Assembly (NCBI RefSeq): GCF_001561915.1
Contig: NZ_LSKU01000001.1
Coordinates: 1,089,216 to 1,153,215, forward strand
Origin: Tepidibacillus decaturensis
GTDB lineage: Bacteria > Bacillota > Bacilli > Tepidibacillales > Tepidibacillaceae
DNA length: 64,000 nt
Direction: 5' to 3'
Notes under the pieces: generated by a model
Seen by the model: the letters and a program-made list of their open reading frames with translations, nothing else
What the model was told of the DNA's origin: nothing
The model's database searches: none
In this document: positions 328-64,000 of the stretch, piece after piece
Layout: each line of letters starts with the position of its first letter
How positions within the stretch are numbered: position 1 is the stretch's first letter
Translations under genes and position numbers: made by a program

Positions 328-347
328 TAACTACGTTAAATTTAAAC

Positions 348-442
348 TTATGTTTTCCCTCCGCTGGCATTACCCAGATCAGGTTATTGGTCGATAGCGA
401 ATGATAGCTATCCTCTCAGCCTGTTTTCACAAGCTCCCATAA
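348..442 (-). promoter_or_regulatory. TPP riboswitch (THI element)
   Basis: The minus strand carries the invariant TPP aptamer blocks: GGCTGAGAGG, then ACCTGATCTGGGTAATGCC and AGCGGAGGGA. Closing stem P1 can be formed by TTATG (438-442) and CATAA (348-352). The aptamer is followed by a terminator hairpin and then thiS, the standard arrangement for thiamine-repressed thi operons in Firmicutes. Confidence 0.95.
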
Positions 443-643
443 CATATTAATTTTTTCATATATAAAAGTATCACAGTCAGATTTTATTAGCAATATTTTT
501 TAGTTCTTCGTTTGTGTCAAGTTTTTCTCGATCAACCTTTAACACTAGCAGTTACAGCAATCTATTATTGTACACTTTCCATAGCTACCACGCTATCGCT
601 TGGTGGTCTGGGTTAATTAGTTAGGTCTAAGGAACCTAACTAA
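443..643. other. Gap between thi leader and IS remnant
   Basis: No complete gene is visible. On the minus strand around 478-550 there is a short open stretch ending in the residues DTNEELKNIANKI and a stop; it may be the 3-prime tail of a gene destroyed by the adjacent insertion sequence. I do not recognise it. Confidence 0.3.
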
Positions 644-6029: not shown

Positions 6030-6289
6030 TTGTATTTAACTCAGAAATCATTTTTTTAAAGGTGAAAAGAAAAACTGGCGTTTTACTTAATTTTTCATAG
6101 AGACTTATTCACACTGGATCGGCTAAAGAGCCGTAAGGATGTTTGAGAGGCAGGGCTAACGTCGTTTAAGTTTAGAATAAATATGTGGAATATTGCCGCG
6201 GCAAGGATATTATTTATATGAGTTATTAAATACTTCATTCACAAACGAACTAGGTGATTCATCTAGTTCGTTTTCTATTTCCTTTTTTT
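6030..6289 (+). ncRNA. Candidate structured noncoding RNA with its own promoter and terminator
   Basis: A 470-base gap without a gene holds, on the plus strand, a promoter-like sequence, a compact series of foldable elements (CGGCT-AAAG-AGCCG hairpin at about 6120, a GGCAGGGCTAACGTCG stretch, the self-complementary TTGCCGCGGCAA at about 6194) and a strong terminator (AACGAACTAG/CTAGTTCGTT then T-rich). No open frame with a ribosome site is present. The size of roughly 200-260 nt would suit known Firmicutes RNAs such as the raiA motif, but I cannot confirm a family. Confidence 0.5.
6244..6289 (+). terminator. Terminator of the candidate RNA
   Basis: AACGAACTAG and CTAGTTCGTT form a perfect 10-bp stem followed by T-rich sequence ending in TTTTTTT. 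Confidence 0.8.
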
Positions 6290-33911: not shown

Positions 33912-34279
33912 ATTATATTTAAAATTACAGGAGTTATAGCAGTTGCAGCAGCATTATCATTATCTTTTAATACTAATCTGGAATAATTAGACCTGACAGT
34001 GCTTGGGTAATAGAAGATGTATATTTAAATGATTTTAATGAAGTTAGTACAACCATGGCTGTGACTAGTTCAGCTGGCACTATGAAATTTAATGATTATC
34101 ATTACTTTGATATGACAACTGATGAAAAAACAAAAACTACTACACATGAATTTAGTCACGCTTTAGGTTTAGACCATACTAGTGGTACAGATGATATTAT
34201 GCAACAAGGAAAACTTTCTATTACAAGTTTGTCTTCTACTGATAAGAGTTCATATGATGAAGCGTACGATACATATTAA
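33903..34279 (+). pseudogene. Matrixin-type metalloprotease remnant
   Basis: A signal-peptide-like stretch without a start codon (KITGVIAVAAALSLSFN) is followed by a stop and then by RPDSAWVIEDVYLNDFNEVS, FNDYHYFDMTTDEKTKTT and the zinc motif HEFSHALGLDHTSG with a Met-turn-like DDIMQQGK. It parallels the intact secreted matrixin at 60314-60814 (APDSAWVIEDLSF, YNDYYFYDFSPEQRKHT, HELGHALGIDH), but the segment between signal peptide and PDSAWV is deleted. Probably inactive, though an internal ATG at 34055 leaves the zinc-binding part open. Confidence 0.8.
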
Positions 34280-34300
34280 AAAAAGGATGTGTAATTATTT

Positions 34301-34498
34301 ATGAAAAAAATCTTAATAGTTTTAATGCTTTTAACTACGTTGATTTTAGGTGCATGTTCTAATAAAAATGTAAGTATGAGTGATTTACCCATAAAAATAA
34401 GCGTAAACCTTGGGGTGTTTACTGTGCGATGCAAGACAAAAGCACGAGGGTCACAAGGCCCACCACGCGCCCGCCATATCGTACCGAAGTGTACATAA
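34301..34498 (+). CDS. Truncated lipoprotein
   Basis: Starts MKKILIVLMLLTTLILGACSNK, a clear lipoprotein signal with lipobox LGAC. After about residue 35 the sequence turns abruptly GC-rich and Arg/Pro-rich (KTKARGSQGPPRARHI), unlike the start, so the original gene was probably cut here. It follows the matrixin remnant by 20 bases in the same direction, perhaps once its operon partner. Function unknown. Confidence 0.5.
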   Translation: MKKILIVLMLLTTLILGACSNKNVSMSDLPIKISVNLGVFTVRCKTKARGSQGPPRARHIVPKCT

Positions 34499-44202: not shown

Positions 44203-44270
44203 AAATCGTAACTTCATTAGAAGCGGAGCGAATTTTTTTACGATTCCTACGCTTTTATGAATTACGATTT
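44203..44270 (+). repeat. Long imperfect hairpin upstream of the cold-shock promoter
   Basis: AAATCGTAACTTCAT and ATGAATTACGATTT can pair (one bulge), with AGCG/CGCT inside, followed by TTTTTTGTTTTT on the plus strand. It lies before the csp promoter, so it may be a terminator or the end of a short RNA. Confidence 0.55.
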
Positions 44271-44291
44271 TTTGTTTTTCCAAAATATTTT

Positions 44292-44321
44292 TTGAGAACG
44301 TGGTTAAATTAATTTTATACA
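44292..44321 (+). promoter_or_regulatory. Promoter of the cold-shock gene
   Basis: TTGAGA, 18 bases, TATACA; the start codon lies about 30 bases beyond the predicted transcription start. Confidence 0.6.
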
Positions 44322-44353
44322 ATGTGTATAAGGAAGACTTAGGAGGTTTCACA

Positions 44354-44551
44354 ATGCAAGGTAAAGTAAAATGGTTTAATTCAGAAAAAGGTTTTGGATT
44401 CATCGAAGTTGATGGCGGAGACGATGTATTCGTTCACTTCTCAGCAATTCAAGGTGACGGTTTCAAAACATTAGAAGAAGGACAAAAAGTTACATTTGAT
44501 ATCGTTGAAGGTAACCGTGGTCCTCAAGCTGCTAACGTTATTAAGCTATAA
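44354..44551 (+). CDS. Cold-shock protein (CspA/CspB family)
   Basis: 65-residue OB-fold RNA chaperone. RNP1 KGFGFIEV and RNP2 DVFVHFSAI are intact, and the sequence starts [16 protein letters not shown] as in Bacillus CspB/CspD. ATG 44354 has TAGGAGG eight bases upstream. Codon use is strongly biased toward frequent codons, as expected for a highly expressed gene. A clear terminator follows. Confidence 0.96.
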
Positions 44552-44584
44552 TTCTTATAGAATATAGAAAATATCAGAAGCGAA

Positions 44585-44614
44585 AGTCTCTCTTACAACA
44601 GAGAGACTTTTTTT
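44585..44614 (+). terminator. Terminator of the cold-shock gene
   Basis: AGTCTCTCT/AGAGAGACT stem followed by T7. Confidence 0.9.
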
Positions 44615-52466: not shown

Positions 52467-53636
52467 TTAATAGTTGGAACTTACCAGTTTTTCTTTTATT
52501 TTATTATGAATAATCGTTTGTTCCTCAATTAAGGTAATGTCGCCGCTTATATTTCCAATGTTGGAGCCTGCTTTAATGATCGTTCCTTCACCAATAATTG
52601 ACTTTTGAATCACTACATTGTCCTCAATGATCACATTTGGCATGATCACTGAGTCTTTGATGATACTTCCTTTCCCCACCTGAACACCATGAAAAAGTAC
52701 AGAATGTTCGATCTGACCATAAATTGAACAACCTTCATTGATTAGGGAACAATGGACTTGAGCGTTTGGAGCAATATATTGAGGGGGTTGGTAAGAATTG
52801 ACTGAATAAATTCGCCATTGGTAATCGTTTAAATCTAGTTCGGGTTGATCCTTAATCAAATCCATATTAGCCTTCCACAAACTCTCGATGGTTCCAACAT
52901 CCCGCCAATACCCTTTATAAGGATATGCAAACATCTTCCGACCTTCTTTAAGCATCATTGGAATCACATCTTTACCAAAATCATGAGTAGAATCATGGAT
53001 CTGTTCATCTTTTAATAAAGCTTCTTTCAATACATTCCAATTGAAAATATAAATGCCCATAGAGGCTAAATTATTTTTGGGAACTTGTGGTTTTTCTTCA
53101 AATTCTGTAATCCTTAGTTGCCTATCTGTATTCATAATGCCAAATCGACTTGCTTCGTCCCAAGGTACTTCGATTACGGCAATCGTTGCATCTGCACCTT
53201 TTTCAATATGATTCTTTAATATATGTTGGTAATTCATTTTGTAGATATGGTCACCGGAAAGAATGAGAACATATTCAGGTTGAAATTGATCAATATAGGC
53301 TATATTTTGATAGATAGAATTAGCTGTTCCTTTATACCACTTAGCTCCATTCTTTTCCATATAAGGTGGAAGGACTGTAACCCCGCCATCTCTCCGATCC
53401 AGATCCCATGAACTTCCGATTCCAATATAGGAATGTAATACAAGGGGTTCATATTGAGTAAGCACACCAACTGTATCGATTCCAGAGTTTGCACAATTAC
53501 TTAAAGCAAAATCAATGATGCGATATTTACCTCCAAACAAAACGGCAGGTTTGGCCAGATTTTTTGTTAATAGTCCTAATCTTTTTCCTTCGCCTCCGGC
53601 AAGAAGCATTGCAATACACTCTTTTTTTCGCATCAT
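52467..53636 (-). CDS. glgC: Glucose-1-phosphate adenylyltransferase catalytic subunit GlgC
   Basis: 389 residues. Nucleotide-binding [63 protein letters not shown]-like [29 protein letters not shown] (catalytic Asp), FEEKPQVP, and C-terminal beta-helix repeats. Makes ADP-glucose, the committed step of glycogen synthesis. The tandem ATG start overlaps the end of glgB. AAAGGGG precedes it. Confidence 0.96.
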
Positions 53637-55523
53637 TCATTCCCCTTTTCCCTTCCAAATTTATTCGTTTAAACATCACTGTTGCCAGTGGTGGAATTTT
53701 TATCACTAAGTGATAAGGTTGGTTATGCCACTTTTCTTTTACTGCCTGTATAGGTTTAAAATTACCCTTACCAGAGCCACCATATTTATCATCATCACTA
53801 TTCCATACCTCAACATACTCACCGAGATGTGGAACTCCAATTCGGTAATGATCATAATAGGATGGTGTAAAATTACAAACAATGATCAATTCAATTTGAG
53901 CTTGATCTTTACGCATAAAGGTAATGATACTTTGATTGGTATCATGGGGATCAATCCACTCAAAACCCATTGCATGATGATCAAGCTGCCAAAGGATTGG
54001 TTCTTCTTTGTAAAAATGGTTTAAATCTTTTACATATTGCTGTAATTTACGATGTAGATCGTTGTCAACTAGATTCCAATCCACTTCAGCTTCATCTTTC
54101 CACTCATCAAACTGACCTAGTTCTCCCCCCATAAAGAGAAGCTTTTTCCCAGGATGAGCGATCATATAGCCATAAAACAATCTTAATCCTGCAAATTTCT
54201 GCCAATAATCGCCAAATATTTTATTCAGCATAGATCTTTTCCCATGTACCACTTCGTCGTGTGATAAAGGAAGAACAAAATTTTCTGAAAAGGTATAAAA
54301 AAATGAGAAGGTTAATAAATGATGATGGTACTTACGATAAATAGGATCTAGTTCCATATACTTTAGCATGTCATTCATCCAACCCATATTCCATTTAAAG
54401 TTAAACCCTAATCCACCAAGATAGGTTGGTGAGGTCACTAATGGCCAGGAAGTCGATTCTTCAGCAATCATCAATGCATTTGGATAATAACGAAACACAA
54501 CTTCATTCAGCTTTTTTAAAAAAGCTATAGCTTCCAGATTTTCTCTTCCACCATATTGGTTTGGTTCCCATTCCCCATCTCTTTTACCAAAATCCAAATA
54601 GAGCATACTAGCTACAGCATCAACTCTTAGTCCATCAATATGAAAGATGTCCAGCAAAAATATTGCATTTGAGATCAGAAAGCTTTGTACTTCAGGTTTT
54701 CCAAGGTCAAAGCCTAAAGTCCCCCAATCCGTTTTTTCTGCTCTATTAGGATTTTCATACTCATATAAGGGGGTTCCATCAAATCTCATAAGTCCATGTT
54801 CATCTTTGCAAAAATGACCTGGCACCCAATCAAGGATCACCCCAATTCCTTTTTGATGACACTGATCTACAAAATACATAAAATCATGAGGTGTACCAAA
54901 TCGACTCGTGATAGAGTAATAACCGGTTCCTTGATAGCCCCATGAGCGATCAAATGGGTGCTCATTCAGTGGTAAAATTTCAATATGGGTATAGCCCATA
55001 TCAACTACATAAGATATCAATTCATTTGCTAATTCTCGATAGGTATAAAAACTGCCATCCTTTTTTTTTTCCAAGATCCAAAGTGTACCTCATAAATATT
55101 AAGGGGATTGTTGTACACACTTTTTATTTGAGTTTGCCAATCTTGATCATGCCATTTATAGCCATGCAAATCATAAATAATAGATGCAGTATTGGGTCGT
55201 AATTCTGAATAAAAAGCATAGGGATCTGCTTTAAGAAGGGTTTTCCCTTGATCCGTTTTAATCTCGTATTTGTATAATGTACCTTCCCCTAGCTCTGGAA
55301 TAAACAATTCCCAGATACCTGTGTCTTTCACCCTCTTCATTCGATGAGCGTTCCCATTCCATTGGTTAAAATCCCCAACTACACTTACAGCTCTTGCATG
55401 TGGTGCCCAAACAGAGAATCTAACGTTTATTCTTCCTTCTTGTTCTTTTCGGTGAGCTCCTAATAACTGATAACTGTGAAATAGGTTCCCTTCATGAAAA
55501 AGATAGAGATCGTGTTCGGTCAT
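53633..55523 (-). CDS. glgB: 1,4-alpha-glucan branching enzyme, with one-base frameshift(s)
   Basis: Two frames join to about 630 residues, the normal GlgB length. N-terminal CBM48 part: [33 protein letters not shown], then [12 protein letters not shown]. After an A10 tract (55061-55070), where eleven A restore frame, comes [18 protein letters not shown] and the GH13 barrel: [27 protein letters not shown] (nucleophile), IAEESTSWP (acid), [12 protein letters not shown]. The second frame runs past the natural end ([12 protein letters not shown]) to 53527 inside glgC; another single A in GGGAAAAGGGG would end it at TGA 53633-53635, overlapping the glgC ATGATG. First gene of the glycogen operon. 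Confidence 0.92.
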
Positions 55524-58914: not shown

Positions 58915-59024
58915 ATGAACATCTATATTAAACAAAAATATTGATGAAGGGGATTATTCTTTCATATAATGAACATGTTTGTGATTACTTATCTTTACTA
59001 AGACAAAGCGTTGAGGTGATTAAA

Positions 59025-59147
59025 TTGAATCATTTTTTTAAACTTCAGGAACGGGGTACAACCGTTTCTACAGAATTTTTAGCAGGGTTAACTACATATT
59101 TGACAATGGTATATATTGTTATCGTGAATCCTGCCATCTTGGGGTAA
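59025..59147 (+). pseudogene. N-terminal fragment of an NCS2 purine permease (AzgA/PbuG type)
   Basis: Starts at TTG 59025 with GAGGTGA upstream and reads NHFFKLQERGTTVSTEFLAG followed by LTTYLTMVYIVIVNPAILG, the conserved N-terminus of adenine/guanine permeases. It stops after 40 residues and the other roughly 390 are absent. A relic. Confidence 0.8.
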
Positions 59148-59692
59148 TACCAGCGAAGCTGTTACCACCCGCAAACTATTGGCATAATATGTATTTTTAA
59201 TTCACCCATGCTATCATAAAAATATTGAGTAACTAGGAAGTGTTGAAAAAATTAATTTAACACAGATTTTAGCTAGATAATAAAAATATGCTTCCTTAAT
59301 CTTCCACTTAACCGCTCTTAATTAACTCTATCACAAATTAAGTCTTTTCTCTTATTTCACGACAATGTAAATTAACTAAAAAAGAAAGATTTAGTGTAAA
59401 AAGAATCGTAAAAAAAGTCGATAAGGACTGCCCTCGGGTATTGCTAATACGGTTTTTAGATTTCTCCGGAAGCCTGGACACAAATTATTGTTCGTATTCG
59501 CCCTTGAAAGTAGCAAAAAATCCCTATCATGAAAGAAAGGAATGAAATTAAACGATATATAGCAGCCAAAGAGAATGAACTCCCAGCTGCTATATAAATC
59601 GAGCATTATTTTTGTGTTTCGCTAAATAAGGAATTCATTGTTGCATAGTACACTAGAGGAATTCTTGATGGAAAATACCAATTTATCTCTAT
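59148..59692. other. Gene-free stretch with one hairpin
   Basis: No gene is recognised. The only clear structure is an 11-bp perfect inverted repeat TATATAGCAGC/GCTGCTATATA at about 59557-59597 without a good T-run. The stretch lies between a truncated permease and the matrixin operon and is probably decayed sequence. Confidence 0.4.
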
Positions 59693-60289
59693 CTACTCAC
59701 CATTTTTTTCCAAATCTTCTTTTGATAATTGTCCTCTATTATTGTAATTATCTTTATTTTTTAATGCCTCTGGAATTATTTCATATTTATAAGCAGAAGC
59801 AAACTCCTTTATTAACTGTGCCTTTTGCGCCTCATCATCAATCTTTAGATCGCCGAACTTGTTAATAAGAGTATGCCAATCCTGAGATTCAAGATACCTT
59901 GTCGCAAAAAGATATGTTTCACCAGGAACCAATAATTCATCTTCGTTATATATTAGCAAATATTTCTTTCCCTCTTTTTCATAAAATCCTCCCTGTTGAT
60001 TAACAGTTACATTTCCATTTAAGTTCCCCTTAATATTTTGAAGGACTTTCACTGAAAATTGAGTTTCGGGTGTACCATCTAATGATTTTTGATCAGTCTC
60101 TTCAATAACTTTTCCAACAAAAACATTATGTGAAGCACCAACTAATTTCCGCTTATCGGTAAAATCATCAATGTAATTGTTATGCCCGTTAATAACTTGA
60201 ACATCATCGTCACCACTGACATTTATACCAATGAAGCCGGCAACGAAAATAAACATTACAGCCAAACTCATATATAGATATTTCCTCAC
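59693..60289 (-). CDS. Exported protein with NTR/TIMP-like sequence pattern, partner of the matrixin
   Basis: 198 residues from GTG 60289 (GAGGTGA upstream). One N-terminal hydrophobic segment (YMSLAVMFIFVAGFIGI) acts as signal or anchor; no lipobox. The mature part reads VGASHNVFVGKVIEETDQKS, QFSVKVLQNIKGN, VTVNQQGGFY and GETYLFATRYLESQDWHTL. The spacing of VFVGKV, FxVxxxxKG and GxxYLFA strands is that of netrin-like/TIMP-like OB-fold domains, here without cysteines. That fold call is inference. It begins 25 bases after the matrixin gene in the same operon, so a role as inhibitor, chaperone or substrate-binding partner of the protease is plausible. Its tail is charged and helical. Confidence 0.75.
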   Translation of the reverse strand: MRKYLYMSLAVMFIFVAGFIGINVSGDDDVQVINGHNNYIDDFTDKRKLVGASHNVFVGKVIEETDQKSLDGTPETQFSVKVLQNIKGNLNGNVTVNQQGGFYEKEGKKYLLIYNEDELLVPGETYLFATRYLESQDWHTLINKFGDLKIDDEAQKAQLIKEFASAYKYEIIPEALKNKDNYNNRGQLSKEDLEKNGE

Positions 60290-60313
60290 TTGATTCACCT
60301 CGTTTTTAGATTT

Positions 60314-60814
60314 TTAGTTACCCCATAAAGAGTTATAGTCTTCTTTATCATGGGTACCTAGTTCAGTATAGCTATGGAACCCTGATCTCATGACATTATC
60401 AACTAAATCATGATGATCAATCCCTAAGGCGTGTCCGAGTTCATGTAAAGCAGTGTGCTTCCTTTGTTCAGGAGAAAAATCATAGAAATAATAATCATTG
60501 TACTTAATTAGGTCTGAATCATTAGACCACCAAGAATATTGCCCACTCCAAGTAACATCATCACGATTAACATCTGTAAATGAAAGATCTTCGATAACCC
60601 ACGCACTATCAGGAGCTATATTAATAATCCCCATGTCATTCCATTTAGTAATTGAATGATCCCTAGTTACTGTCCATCCCGTTGTTCCTTTAGCATCTCC
60701 CCAGCGAATTTCCGAACCGTCAACTGAACTGTACCCTTGATCATGAGCGAATACAGCAGAAGGTGTGATGGCTATTAAAAACGCTAAACCCAATAAAAAT
60801 AAAATCTTTTTCAT
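60314..60814 (-). CDS. Secreted matrixin-like zinc metalloprotease
   Basis: 166 residues from ATG 60814 (AAGGAGATG upstream). Signal peptide MKKILFLLGLAFLIAITPSA ending VFA, then a compact catalytic domain with the metzincin zinc motif HELGHALGIDHHD (three His and the catalytic Glu) and a Met-turn in DNVMRSG. No propeptide cysteine switch is visible and the domain is close to the minimal matrixin size. It should be an extracellular protease; substrate unknown. It is the first gene of a two-gene operon and has a class-I c-di-GMP riboswitch about 410 bases upstream on the same strand. A decayed paralogue lies at 33.9-34.3 kb. Confidence 0.88.
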   Translation of the reverse strand: MKKILFLLGLAFLIAITPSAVFAHDQGYSSVDGSEIRWGDAKGTTGWTVTRDHSITKWNDMGIINIAPDSAWVIEDLSFTDVNRDDVTWSGQYSWWSNDSDLIKYNDYYFYDFSPEQRKHTALHELGHALGIDHHDLVDNVMRSGFHSYTELGTHDKEDYNSLWGN

Positions 60815-61190
60815 TTCGCATCTCCTTTTCATGAATATAATTGAGCAGAATAGATCCAAATACTTTCAGACGATGCAAGTAATATTATGAATACAAAAGA
60901 CCCCTCCTGTTTTTGCTGATTGACCACTTTTCTTTATTGCCAAAGTTACCGTGATGTTTTAATATTAATTTGGACATGGCTTTGATCAATAAAAGAAATG
61001 GTCATGCTGGGCCGTTTCCAATAGCGTCCTCGAAAAGTAGATTGGTTTCGGCTCATTTATTGTAAATAGGAGAGCCATATCATCGCTCTCCCATTTAACA
61101 ATCTAGTCCCAATAGCAAATCATCCTGTCTATAACTTTGACGTTATAAGTCTTGAAAAAGTTCCTTTCCCCTTTTACAAACTTCAATAAC
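60815..61190 (-). other. Leader between the c-di-GMP riboswitch and the matrixin gene
   Basis: About 375 bases. They contain a hairpin GGGAGAGC/GCTCTCC at about 61068-61095 and a 36-codon open frame (60946-61056, starting MSRNQSTFRGRYW) without a ribosome site. No convincing second promoter is seen. The stretch may be an unusually long leader or a scar of a lost gene. Confidence 0.4.
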
Positions 61191-61218
61191 AAAATGCTAC
61201 CCGAATAGGATAGCATTT
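61191..61218 (-). terminator. Terminator of the c-di-GMP riboswitch
   Basis: AAATGCTA-CC pairs with GG-TAGCATTT and is followed by TTGTTATT on the minus strand, directly after the aptamer. Confidence 0.75.
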
Positions 61219-61227
61219 CTCTCCAAC

Positions 61228-61304
61228 TCGGCAACCTGTCAACCATAGCATAAAATGCCTTAGGTCATGGCTTTGCGTCCCAACGTTTCCGAAGGTTTGC
61301 CCTT
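61228..61304 (-). promoter_or_regulatory. Cyclic-di-GMP-I riboswitch (GEMM-I)
   Basis: The minus strand has the class-I aptamer blocks in order: GGGCAAACC, a GGAAAC tetraloop-type turn, GGGACGCAAAGCC, ACCTAAG (tetraloop receptor), then ATGGTTGACAGGTTGCC closing the aptamer. A terminator hairpin follows at once, so the switch probably works by transcription termination. The downstream genes on this strand are the matrixin and its partner. Confidence 0.92.
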
Positions 61305-61341
61305 AACTTTATTATTTTTTCAATATTTTAAACTTTATTTT

Positions 61342-61371
61342 ATTATAAGGAAAAAACATCCAGTTTGTCCA
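61342..61371 (-). promoter_or_regulatory. Promoter of the riboswitch transcript
   Basis: TGGACA (61366-61371), 18 bases, TATAAT (61342-61347) on the minus strand; the start would be near 61335, about 30 bases before the aptamer. Confidence 0.7.
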
Positions 61372-61555
61372 CAGTGAAACTTGACTAACTTTGTCGAATG
61401 CAATTCTTTTTACTAGAATTTCCATCAATCTCTTATTTTAAGACTATCAAATAGAAGATAATCTTGTGTTTAACCTCAACAATCTTTAATTTTCTTTTTG
61501 AGTTGATCCGCATAAGAAGGATTTACTTCTGCATTTCCGACCTTGCTATAATTCT

Positions 61556-61702
61556 TCATTCACTTGCATTTAACAATTTAAGAGGATTCGTAGAAACAAT
61601 AATATTGGAACCAACGAATACTTTGAGCACATTATGTTTTCGCTCAGTCCACATTTCCTCCCGGATTTGTTCCAGATCGTCTAGTAATATTTCTTCTGTC
61701 AT
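61556..61702 (-). CDS. Small open frame, 48 residues
   Basis: Starts MTEEILLDDLEQIREEMW and ends NPLKLLNASE. AAAAGGA directly precedes the ATG and AAGGAGG lies further upstream. After its stop another frame continues with NAEVNPSYADQLKKKIKD, so it may be the 5-prime part of a frameshifted gene. It lies divergent from the Tn3 transposase, where a recombinase or accessory gene would be expected, but I recognise no family. Confidence 0.35.
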   Translation of the reverse strand: MTEEILLDDLEQIREEMWTERKHNVLKVFVGSNIIVSTNPLKLLNASE

Positions 61703-61913
61703 TCCTTTTCTTGTGCCTCCTTGCTAAAGTGGCCATTATTGAAGGATCGGAAAAAATGTAATTACAAAATCGAGTATAGTGAATATTTACGTATTGCTTT
61801 TATCCTTTTGAACCAACTCTAGAAACTTCCATATTCATAAGGAACCTCCCTCTCATTTTACTTACTTTCTATAGATTTCAATACATCATGACATAATAAA
61901 TGCCTTAACAATG

Positions 61914-62035
61914 AAGTTCCGAAAAATAATTTGTAAATGGAACTTGGATAGTATTTCATCTTATATTGTTTAAAACAGTAGGCTCATATATACTAGTTTT
62001 AACTATAATGTTCCGATACTCATCATTTTAGGAAC
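61914..62035. repeat. Two related inverted repeats upstream of the Tn3 transposase (possible resolution site)
   Basis: First repeat: AAGTTCC (61914-61920) and GGAACTT (61939-61945). Second: GTTCC (62010-62014) and GGAAC (62031-62035). Both left arms continue GTTCCGA. Such paired motifs in the divergent region of Tn3-family transposons are typical of recombinase core sites, but this is inference. Confidence 0.45.
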
Positions 62036-62062
62036 TTTTAATTTTAGAGAGGATGTGATGCA

Positions 62063-64000
62063 ATGAAGAGGAACTGGGAACTTGATGAACTCATTGAGCA
62101 TTTCACGATATTACCCGATGAGATGAAGGTGGTTGAAAACAAAAAAGGGGAAACGAGACTTGGGTTTGCTGTACTGCTAAAGTTTTTTCAAAACGAAGCA
62201 AGATTTCCCAATCATAAGTATGAAGTTCCAAAATCAATTATTGCGTATATTGCGAAGCAGGTTTTTGTGGAACCTGAACTCTACACTAGATACGATTGGA
62301 ATTCAAGATCAATTACATATCATCGATCACAAGTCAGAGAATACTTTGGATTTAGAGAAGCTACTGTTCAAGATGCTGAAGAGATGTCCAACTGGCTCTG
62401 TCAGCATGTTCTATATCATAATCATGACGTAGATCATGTAGAAGCACAAGTGTATGCTCGATTTCGTGAGCTACATATCGAACCGTCGTCACCTGAACGA
62501 GTGGAACGATTGGTTCGCTCTGCGATCCGTTCCTATGAAAACCGCTTTTTTCAGAAAACCTTTGAAAAGATCCCTCAAACCTCTTTAGAAAAGTTAGATG
62601 CCTTAATTGATAGTATTGCCGACTTAGAAGTAGATATAGATGAACCTAATGAATCTGGAAATGATCAACTAACCTTTCATGAGTTAAAATCGGATCCTGG
62701 ACGTCCTGGATTAGAAAGTGTGTTCAAAGAGTTAAATAAGCTTCGAACCATTCGAAATTTACAGCTTCCAACTGATTTATTTAAAGACGTTCCACAAAAG
62801 GTCATTAAAAAATACCGACAGAGAACAGCTACAGAAGATCTTCGTGAGTTAAGACGCCATCCTGAACCGATTCGCTATACCCTTCTTTCCTCTTTCTTTT
62901 GGCAACGTAGCTTAGAGATTACAGATAATTTAGTAGAACTCTTGATTCAAATCATTCACCGAATTGGTGTACGAGCTGAACGAAAAGTACAAAAAGAGAT
63001 ACTGAATGATTTAAGACGAGTTAGTGGCAAAACTTCGATCCTTTTCAATATGGCCGAGACAGCATTAAATCACCCTGATGGTCTAATTAAGGAAGTTTTA
63101 TACCCTGTTGTTAGCGAGCAAACCTTGAGAGATTTAGTCAAAGAATTTAAACATACAGGACCTGCCTACCGAGAGAAAATCCATACCGTAATCAGAGCGT
63201 CTTATGGCAGCCATTATCGACGAATGGTTCCGGAAATATTAAATATACTTGATTTTCGCTCGAATAATGAGGTTCACCGCCCGGTGATCGAAGCTTTGGA
63301 ACTGATCAAGAAGTACGCAAATACAGGACTTCATTATTTTTCTATGACCGATAATATCCCCAATGATGGTGTCATTCGCTCTGTAAATAAAGATATTATT
63401 ATCGAAAAGGATGACAAAGGGCAAGAAAGAATTAATCGGATTAACTATGAAATTAGTGCCCTTCAAGCACTCCGTGATAAACTCCGGTGTAAAGAGATCT
63501 GGGTGGTTGGTGCTAACCGTTACCGGAACCCTGATGAGGATTTACCTGCTGATTTTGAACAGCGTCGAGAAGAAAATTATAAGGCATTGAAACAACCACT
63601 TGATGCAGACTCTTTTGTTGATGCTTTAAAACAAAAACTGAGTCAGTCACTCGAACGTTTGGATGCTAATATGCCTAGAAATCCAAAAGTGAGAATTACG
63701 AGCAAAGGAAACGGATGGATATCTCTGTCTCCGATCGAAGCACAACCTGAACCTATGAATTTATCACGACTCAAAGGAGAGGTCATGCGACGCTGGCCTA
63801 TGACAAGTTTATTAGATATTTTAAAAGAAACGGATTTACGTATAAACTTTACAGATCACTTTAAGACGGCTGGTGTTCGTGAAACATTAGATCGTGCAAC
63901 CTTACAAAAGCGCATGATTCTTGCTCTTTATGGATTGGGAACGAATACAGGACTTAAACGAGTATCCGCAGGCGATCACGGAGAATCCTATAAAAACTTA
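62063..64000 (+). CDS. Tn3-family transposase, 5-prime part (runs off the window)
   Basis: 646 open codons without interruption, from ATG 62063 with GAGAGGATG upstream; no stop before the window ends. N-terminal DUF4158-type domain (KRNWELDELIEHFTILPDEM, KSIIAYIAKQVFVEPELYTR), followed by the Tn3 core start (IVVGANRYRNPDEDLPADF-like VVGANRYRNPDEDLP, DLRINFTDHFKTAGVRETLD, ILALYGLGTNTGLKR). Full-length relatives have about 960-1010 residues, so roughly 340 remain outside. Catalytic residues partly lie beyond the edge. It appears intact, unlike the Tn3 fragment at 33.6 kb, so it could be an active element. Confidence 0.92.
   Translation, partial: MKRNWELDELIEHFTILPDEMKVVENKKGETRLGFAVLLKFFQNEARFPNHKYEVPKSIIAYIAKQVFVEPELYTRYDWNSRSITYHRSQVREYFGFREATVQDAEEMSNWLCQHVLYHNHDVDHVEAQVYARFRELHIEPSSPERVERLVRSAIRSYENRFFQKTFEKIPQTSLEKLDALIDSIADLEVDIDEPNESGNDQLTFHELKSDPGRPGLESVFKELNKLRTIRNLQLPTDLFKDVPQKVIKKYRQRTATEDLRELRRHPEPIRYTLLSSFFWQRSLEITDNLVELLIQIIHRIGVRAERKVQKEILNDLRRVSGKTSILFNMAETALNHPDGLIKEVLYPVVSEQTLRDLVKEFKHTGPAYREKIHTVIRASYGSHYRRMVPEILNILDFRSNNEVHRPVIEALELIKKYANTGLHYFSMTDNIPNDGVIRSVNKDIIIEKDDKGQERINRINYEISALQALRDKLRCKEIWVVGANRYRNPDEDLPADFEQRREENYKALKQPLDADSFVDALKQKLSQSLERLDANMPRNPKVRITSKGNGWISLSPIEAQPEPMNLSRLKGEVMRRWPMTSLLDILKETDLRINFTDHFKTAGVRETLDRATLQKRMILALYGLGTNTGLKRVSAGDHGESYKNL

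Follow-up and report, generated by a model that had tools for sequence, protein, structure and literature searches.

A c-di-GMP-I riboswitch in the genome of Tepidibacillus decaturensis lies upstream of two genes, encoding a secreted matrixin and its exported partner, that we identify as homologues of Mtz-Tim, a mobile pair of a protease and a TIMP-like protein. The explanation that we favour, with a probability of about 0.58, is that a horizontally acquired Mtz-Tim module sits in a riboswitch-led transcript that would be off at high c-di-GMP. All coordinates below refer to the window, that is, the whole 64,000-nucleotide stretch of DNA that was analysed.

Identification of a putative Mtz-Tim pair

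The mtz-like gene (60814-60314, minus strand), preceded by the ribosome-binding site AGGAG (60826-60822, minus strand, read from the sequence), encodes a secreted matrixin of 166 aa. Its signal peptide is followed directly by the catalytic domain, with no pro-domain, and the protein carries the metzincin motif HExxHxxGxxH/D in the form HELGHALGIDH, with the Met-turn methionine later in the sequence (NVM). The matrixin alone scored 22.7 bits against Pfam Peptidase_M10 (PF00413; curated cut-off 24), and its family profile matched human MMP-1 (E 6e-10), consistent with the secreted matrixin named in the original prediction. A first scan of genome contigs with the protease alone gave no match, and the AlphaFold model of the matrixin (pLDDT 37) was set aside. 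In the window (60317-60814) and in many Mtz homologues, a conserved His directly follows the predicted signal cleavage site (AHD/AHF), possibly serving as an N-terminal zinc ligand or a latency device.

The tim-like gene (60289-59693, minus strand; alternative start 60298) encodes a membrane-anchored or secreted protein with a hydrophobic N-terminal signal, in agreement with the exported partner that had been proposed. Searches of Pfam, NCBIfam, PHROG and PDB with its sequence returned no match, including none to Pfam TIMP, so that its likeness to TIMP is one of fold only. The AlphaFold model of the partner reached a pLDDT of 82 overall and 95-98 in the core, and Foldseek with this model retrieved agrin NtA (E 2.8e-5), NTR domains and TIMP-1/MMP complexes (~5e-4 to 1e-3), indicating that the modelled core has a TIMP/NTR fold. 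The predicted fold is shared with vertebrate TIMP/NTR domains (N-TIMP-1, agrin NtA), but no sequence similarity to them was detected, and the partner has neither their disulphide pattern nor an N-terminal cysteine.

Mtz-Tim of Listeria monocytogenes (LMRG_00713-00714, also found in prophages) was described by Boichis et al. 2021 (PMC8235301). In Listeria, Mtz cleaves the lipoprotein Tim, and the pair alters the cell wall and sensitises cells to wall-targeting agents; over-expression of Mtz-Tim reduced biofilm, while its deletion had no biofilm effect (PMC8235301). We based our identification on gene order, fold and homologues in Listeria phages, with phage contig OR848502 rather than LMRG_00713/00714 themselves as the reference. 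Against this contig, hhalign gave E 2.3e-15 for Mtz and E 2.7e-19 for Tim, and mtz and tim stand side by side in the Listeria phage contigs. In the window, too, the gene for the exported protein of TIMP-like predicted structure follows immediately downstream of the secreted metzincin gene, the two features by which Mtz-Tim is recognised. Gene order, a secreted metzincin, a TIMP-fold surface partner and a mobile context are thus common to the Listeria and Tepidibacillus pairs. The profile of the partner matched 26 of 400 Bacilli genomes, in many of which a protease gene lies upstream, and the pair also occurs on plasmids of Exiguobacterium, Planococcus, Rhodococcus and Gordonia.

Two differences from Listeria were found. 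Listeria Tim is a lipoprotein, whereas the window's Tim has no lipobox; since Tim without a lipobox is also reported for other, related Firmicutes (PMC8235301), the lipobox is not a defining feature of the pair. Moreover, Listeria Mtz-Tim is under a CI/Cro switch, and probably under Agr in prophages, and a riboswitch is not mentioned in PMC8235301. A riboswitch is found in another system, PPEP-1/Zmp1 of Clostridioides difficile, a secreted zinc metalloprotease under a c-di-GMP riboswitch (PMC6366702), to which the original prediction had likened the present locus. The parallel holds for the logic of a secreted metalloprotease controlled by c-di-GMP, but not for the protease: the Pfam search of the matrixin found matrixin-type metzincins only and no PPEP-type family, the closest relative of the two genes is Mtz-Tim of Listeria, and PPEP-1, which cleaves adhesins near their wall anchors, has no TIMP-like partner. 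Adhesin release, suggested earlier as the parallel function, gives way to the Tim partner and the cell wall as the likely site of action, given the likeness to Mtz-Tim (PMC8235301).

The role of the partner can be read in a second way. Potempins and AprI restrain other bacterial metzincins, and the potempins of Tannerella forsythia, encoded together with the KLIKK proteases, are surface lipoproteins adjoining a metalloprotease, although they belong to a different phylum and a different protease architecture. TIMP/N-TIMP structures were among the best fold matches of the window's partner, and proteins of its kind, membrane-anchored or lipoproteins, are nearly always encoded next to the protease, so it is conceivable, if not our first choice, that the partner acts mainly as a TIMP-like inhibitor or immunity protein restraining the protease at the producer's surface. 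However, in Listeria Mtz uses Tim as a substrate, and the phenotype needs both active Mtz and Tim (PMC8235301). An inhibitory role would concern the partner alone and is compatible with riboswitch control of the pair.

At other loci (L137 4376-5498, L139, L063, L064, L066 and L069), an ECF sigma factor gene, Pfam-confirmed in L137, L064 and L069, is directly followed by the gene of a membrane protein whose outer domain is likewise a Tim (TIMP-fold) domain. This membrane protein resembles an anti-sigma factor that uses the Tim domain as its sensor, and it might be a target of metzincin-triggered signalling.

The c-di-GMP-I riboswitch and its predicted expression platform

The c-di-GMP-I (GEMM-I) riboswitch claimed for the minus strand was confirmed by the Rfam RF01051 covariance model: the aptamer (61311-61227, minus strand) matched at 73.2 bits (E 1.8e-12) against a gathering cut-off of 35, over the full length of the model (positions 1-87), and was found again in a whole-genome search. 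Its P2 stem contains two U-U mismatches. No other Rfam family of note was found in 59300-62100, even at a relaxed E. Upstream lies the expected promoter, a sigma-A-like site TGGACA-18-TATAAT (61371-61342, minus strand) with 11 of 12 consensus bases, which with a score of 11.8 is the best site of 61420-60815; transcription is predicted to start at ~61335.

Downstream of the aptamer, as had also been predicted, is an intrinsic terminator hairpin, AAAUGCUAUCC-UAUUC-GGGUAGCAUUU followed by UGUUAUU (61218-61192, minus strand, -13.2 kcal/mol). Its tail is U-rich but imperfect, and a strict terminator scan of the region did not include this hairpin among its calls. In the MFE structure of the transcript ending after the terminator 5' arm, the aptamer strand GGCAUUU (61259-61253, minus strand) pairs with that arm (AAAUGCU, 61218-61212) as a predicted antiterminator. 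The region thus has the parts of an expression platform in silico, a terminator hairpin downstream of the aptamer that overlaps a predicted antiterminator.

The gap between terminator and protease gene

Between the terminator end and the ATG of the mtz-like gene lies a gap of 377 nt (61191-60815, minus strand) with no ORF of note and no recognised promoter. No remnant of another gene was found between riboswitch and mtz, consistent with the earlier statement that nothing else intact separates them. The gap, previously given as 375 bases with one further hairpin, is indeed long, but it holds two inverted-repeat structures, a hairpin at ~61099-61056 and an inverted repeat at ~61002-60921, both lacking a U-tract, and it folds more stably than shuffled sequences (z -3.0). 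It is present as a single copy in the genome, and no homologue was found in the genomes of 201 relatives or in plasmids. Given its single copy and its lack of homologues and coding remnants, we rejected the idea that the gap is a pseudogene or a mobile repeat; a second RNA element within it was rejected because Rfam gave no match. In a scan for sigma-A-like sites, the best site in the gap scored 6.8, a value matched by 69% of shuffles; a separate sigma-A promoter in the gap, including the position just before 60814 that the original prediction had singled out, was therefore rejected.

Five GEMM-I riboswitches were found in this 2.96 Mb Bacilli genome, the other four preceding a secreted protein, a PAS/histidine kinase-type gene, a gene without assignment and a GGDEF/HD protein. 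The last of these riboswitches stands ~490 nt upstream of its GGDEF/HD gene, indicating that a long leader is not unusual in this genome. Since the promoter before the aptamer is far better than any site in the gap and no gene lies in the gap, control of mtz-tim by the riboswitch is likely though unproven, the same caution with which the linkage had first been proposed; control by transcription termination in particular we consider probable.

Riboswitch linkage in other genomes

To place this arrangement among related loci, we ran Rfam on about 60 loci with Mtz/Tim or a related matrixin. A GEMM-I riboswitch stands by the pair in three of them, namely the window, G170 and Bacillus sp. ISL-45, and about 57 of the 60 have none, showing that riboswitch linkage of matrixin/Tim pairs is rare. 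No riboswitch-matrixin pair was found in viral contigs and plasmids.

G170, a genome from another family, has an aptamer (80.2 bits), a terminator (-18.6 kcal/mol), a ribosome-binding site, a secreted matrixin of 210 aa and a Tim-like partner of 282 aa, with profile matches of E 8.8e-9 and 1.7e-6 for the pair. The matrixin gene starts 72 nt after the aptamer and 37 nt after the terminator. This is an unambiguous riboswitch-protease-partner arrangement, and it shows that there are pairs of this kind under direct riboswitch control. Rough counts for GEMM-I genomes put the number of Mtz-Tim pairs that chance alone would place within 500 nt downstream of such a riboswitch at ~0.003, a figure that serves only as a guide because G170 was found through the resemblance of its aptamer to that of the window, in a search that was not blind.

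Bacillus sp. ISL-45 (L131) was rejected as a second clean case. Its riboswitch stands directly before the gene of a conserved 45-aa membrane protein, followed by a terminator and only then by the protease, and the same combination of riboswitch and 45-aa gene is found in G095 and G256 without mtz-tim. The riboswitch therefore serves the 45-aa gene, which has its own terminator, and ISL-45 does not speak for direct control of the pair and calls for caution in reading the window. The synteny looked for in relatives is thus seen in G170, with its aptamer 72 nt before a matrixin-like gene, and not in ISL-45. A GEMM-I right before this conserved protein (WLTPEE...LANQI) was recorded at L131 3891-4175, L181 ~1500-1740 and L182 (ISL-45, G095 and G256).

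The riboswitch of the window may have lost its former target gene in a rearrangement of mobile DNA, of which a degraded Tn3 and mtz-tim are the traces, leaving mtz-tim to use its own, undetected promoter in the gap. Besides the ISL-45 riboswitch, whose 45-aa gene also occurs without the pair, several observations would suit such a history. In the related genome G002 the locus is absent: aceB and aceA have no riboswitch, Tn3 or mtz-tim alongside, and aceB is flanked by other genes with no GEMM-I. Next to the riboswitch of the window, a Tn3-family transposase gene starting at 62063 (plus strand) is degraded, broken before its C-terminal end. The pairs of other relatives travel without a riboswitch, and the Exiguobacterium pair adjoins its own helix-turn-helix regulator. 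Yet a sigma-A-like promoter in the gap would have to be sought among sites at shuffle level, no remnant of a lost gene lies before mtz, and G170 shows that such a pair can be directly controlled. We regard the loss of a former target as less likely than riboswitch control. Counting against control of mtz-tim by the riboswitch, nevertheless, are the long structured gap, a possible promoter for an alternative sigma factor, the rarity of GEMM-I linkage, ISL-45, the U-U mismatches in P2 and the imperfect U-tract.

Predicted polarity of the switch

For a transcript starting at 61320 whose terminator 5' arm has just been made, the antiterminator is the MFE fold (-20.6 kcal/mol) and the aptamer is broken. 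As synthesis of the terminator 3' arm proceeds, a structure forced to keep the antiterminator lies 6-8 kcal/mol above the unconstrained one. When more 5' sequence was included, the aptamer fold became the minimum at about the same transcript stage, suggesting that the two states differ little in energy. Aptamer and terminator occupy separate stretches of the leader, as is usual for an OFF switch, and both coexist in the full-length MFE fold. Because only the antiterminator excludes the aptamer, in silico folding predicts that the switch is OFF at high c-di-GMP. c-di-GMP-I riboswitches are known with either sign, but an ON switch, in which c-di-GMP binding would block the terminator and mtz-tim would be made in the biofilm state, is very improbable here given that the MFE fold holds aptamer and terminator together.

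Proposed mechanism and its meaning

In the mechanism that we propose, the promoter at 61371-61342 would transcribe mtz-tim with a leader carrying the c-di-GMP-I riboswitch. At low c-di-GMP, GGCAUUU would pair with the terminator 5' arm to form the antiterminator, allowing RNA polymerase to pass through the long leader and transcribe mtz and tim; when c-di-GMP is high, the ligand would be bound and stabilise the aptamer, the terminator would form and the operon would be off. Exported Mtz would then cut the membrane-proximal stalk of Tim, as predicted for this organism from Listeria, releasing the TIMP-like domain, and together Mtz and Tim may modify the cell envelope and favour the planktonic state. 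Any phenotype of mtz-tim in Tepidibacillus decaturensis is speculative.

Extending this to several Bacilli, we tentatively suggest that c-di-GMP-I riboswitches captured the mobile, wall-altering protease/TIMP-like pair at least twice independently as a biofilm-exit device, in which low c-di-GMP would release Mtz to shed Tim and remodel the envelope. A pair known to alter the cell wall may thus have come under the control of a biofilm signal in these bacteria. In the open-licence literature searched, Mtz-Tim is experimentally known from Listeria only, and the combination of GEMM-I with Mtz-Tim was not found in that literature, though it may have been described earlier elsewhere. The proposed arrangement would link a protease/TIMP-like pair on which little work has been done to c-di-GMP, the principal signal in the choice between biofilm and free life, offers a testable reason for the reduction of biofilm on Mtz-Tim expression, and provides a further system for asking what bacterial TIMP-like proteins do. 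It also suggests that secreted metalloproteases unrelated to each other came under c-di-GMP riboswitch control, as known for PPEP-1 of C. difficile, on more than one occasion.

Mobile context and other features of the window

The window also contains a second, decayed mtz-tim pair (~33953-34498, plus strand). Its matrixin is reduced to the C-terminal half (HEFSHALGLDH), preceded by stops, and is followed by the lipobox signal of a truncated Tim-like lipoprotein. The Tn3 remnant, this second pair and the absence of the locus from G002 fit a mobile habit of mtz-tim. No Tn3-type terminal repeat was found by pattern search, and mtz-tim as Tn3 cargo was provisionally set aside on this ground. The sequence at 61911-62060, upstream of the transposase gene, matches Tn3 elements of other Bacilli.

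At 58941-59147 (plus strand), a short ORF resembles by eye the start of an NCS2-type nucleobase permease, apparently cut off at ~59147. Elsewhere in the window, Rfam detected a TPP riboswitch (338-450, minus strand), a BsrC small RNA (6089-6174, minus strand) and a cspA-type leader (44227-44613, plus strand). An apparent glycogen branching enzyme gene (53527-55523, minus strand) is split into two overlapping frames of 164 aa and 515 aa, possibly reflecting a frameshift or a sequencing error.
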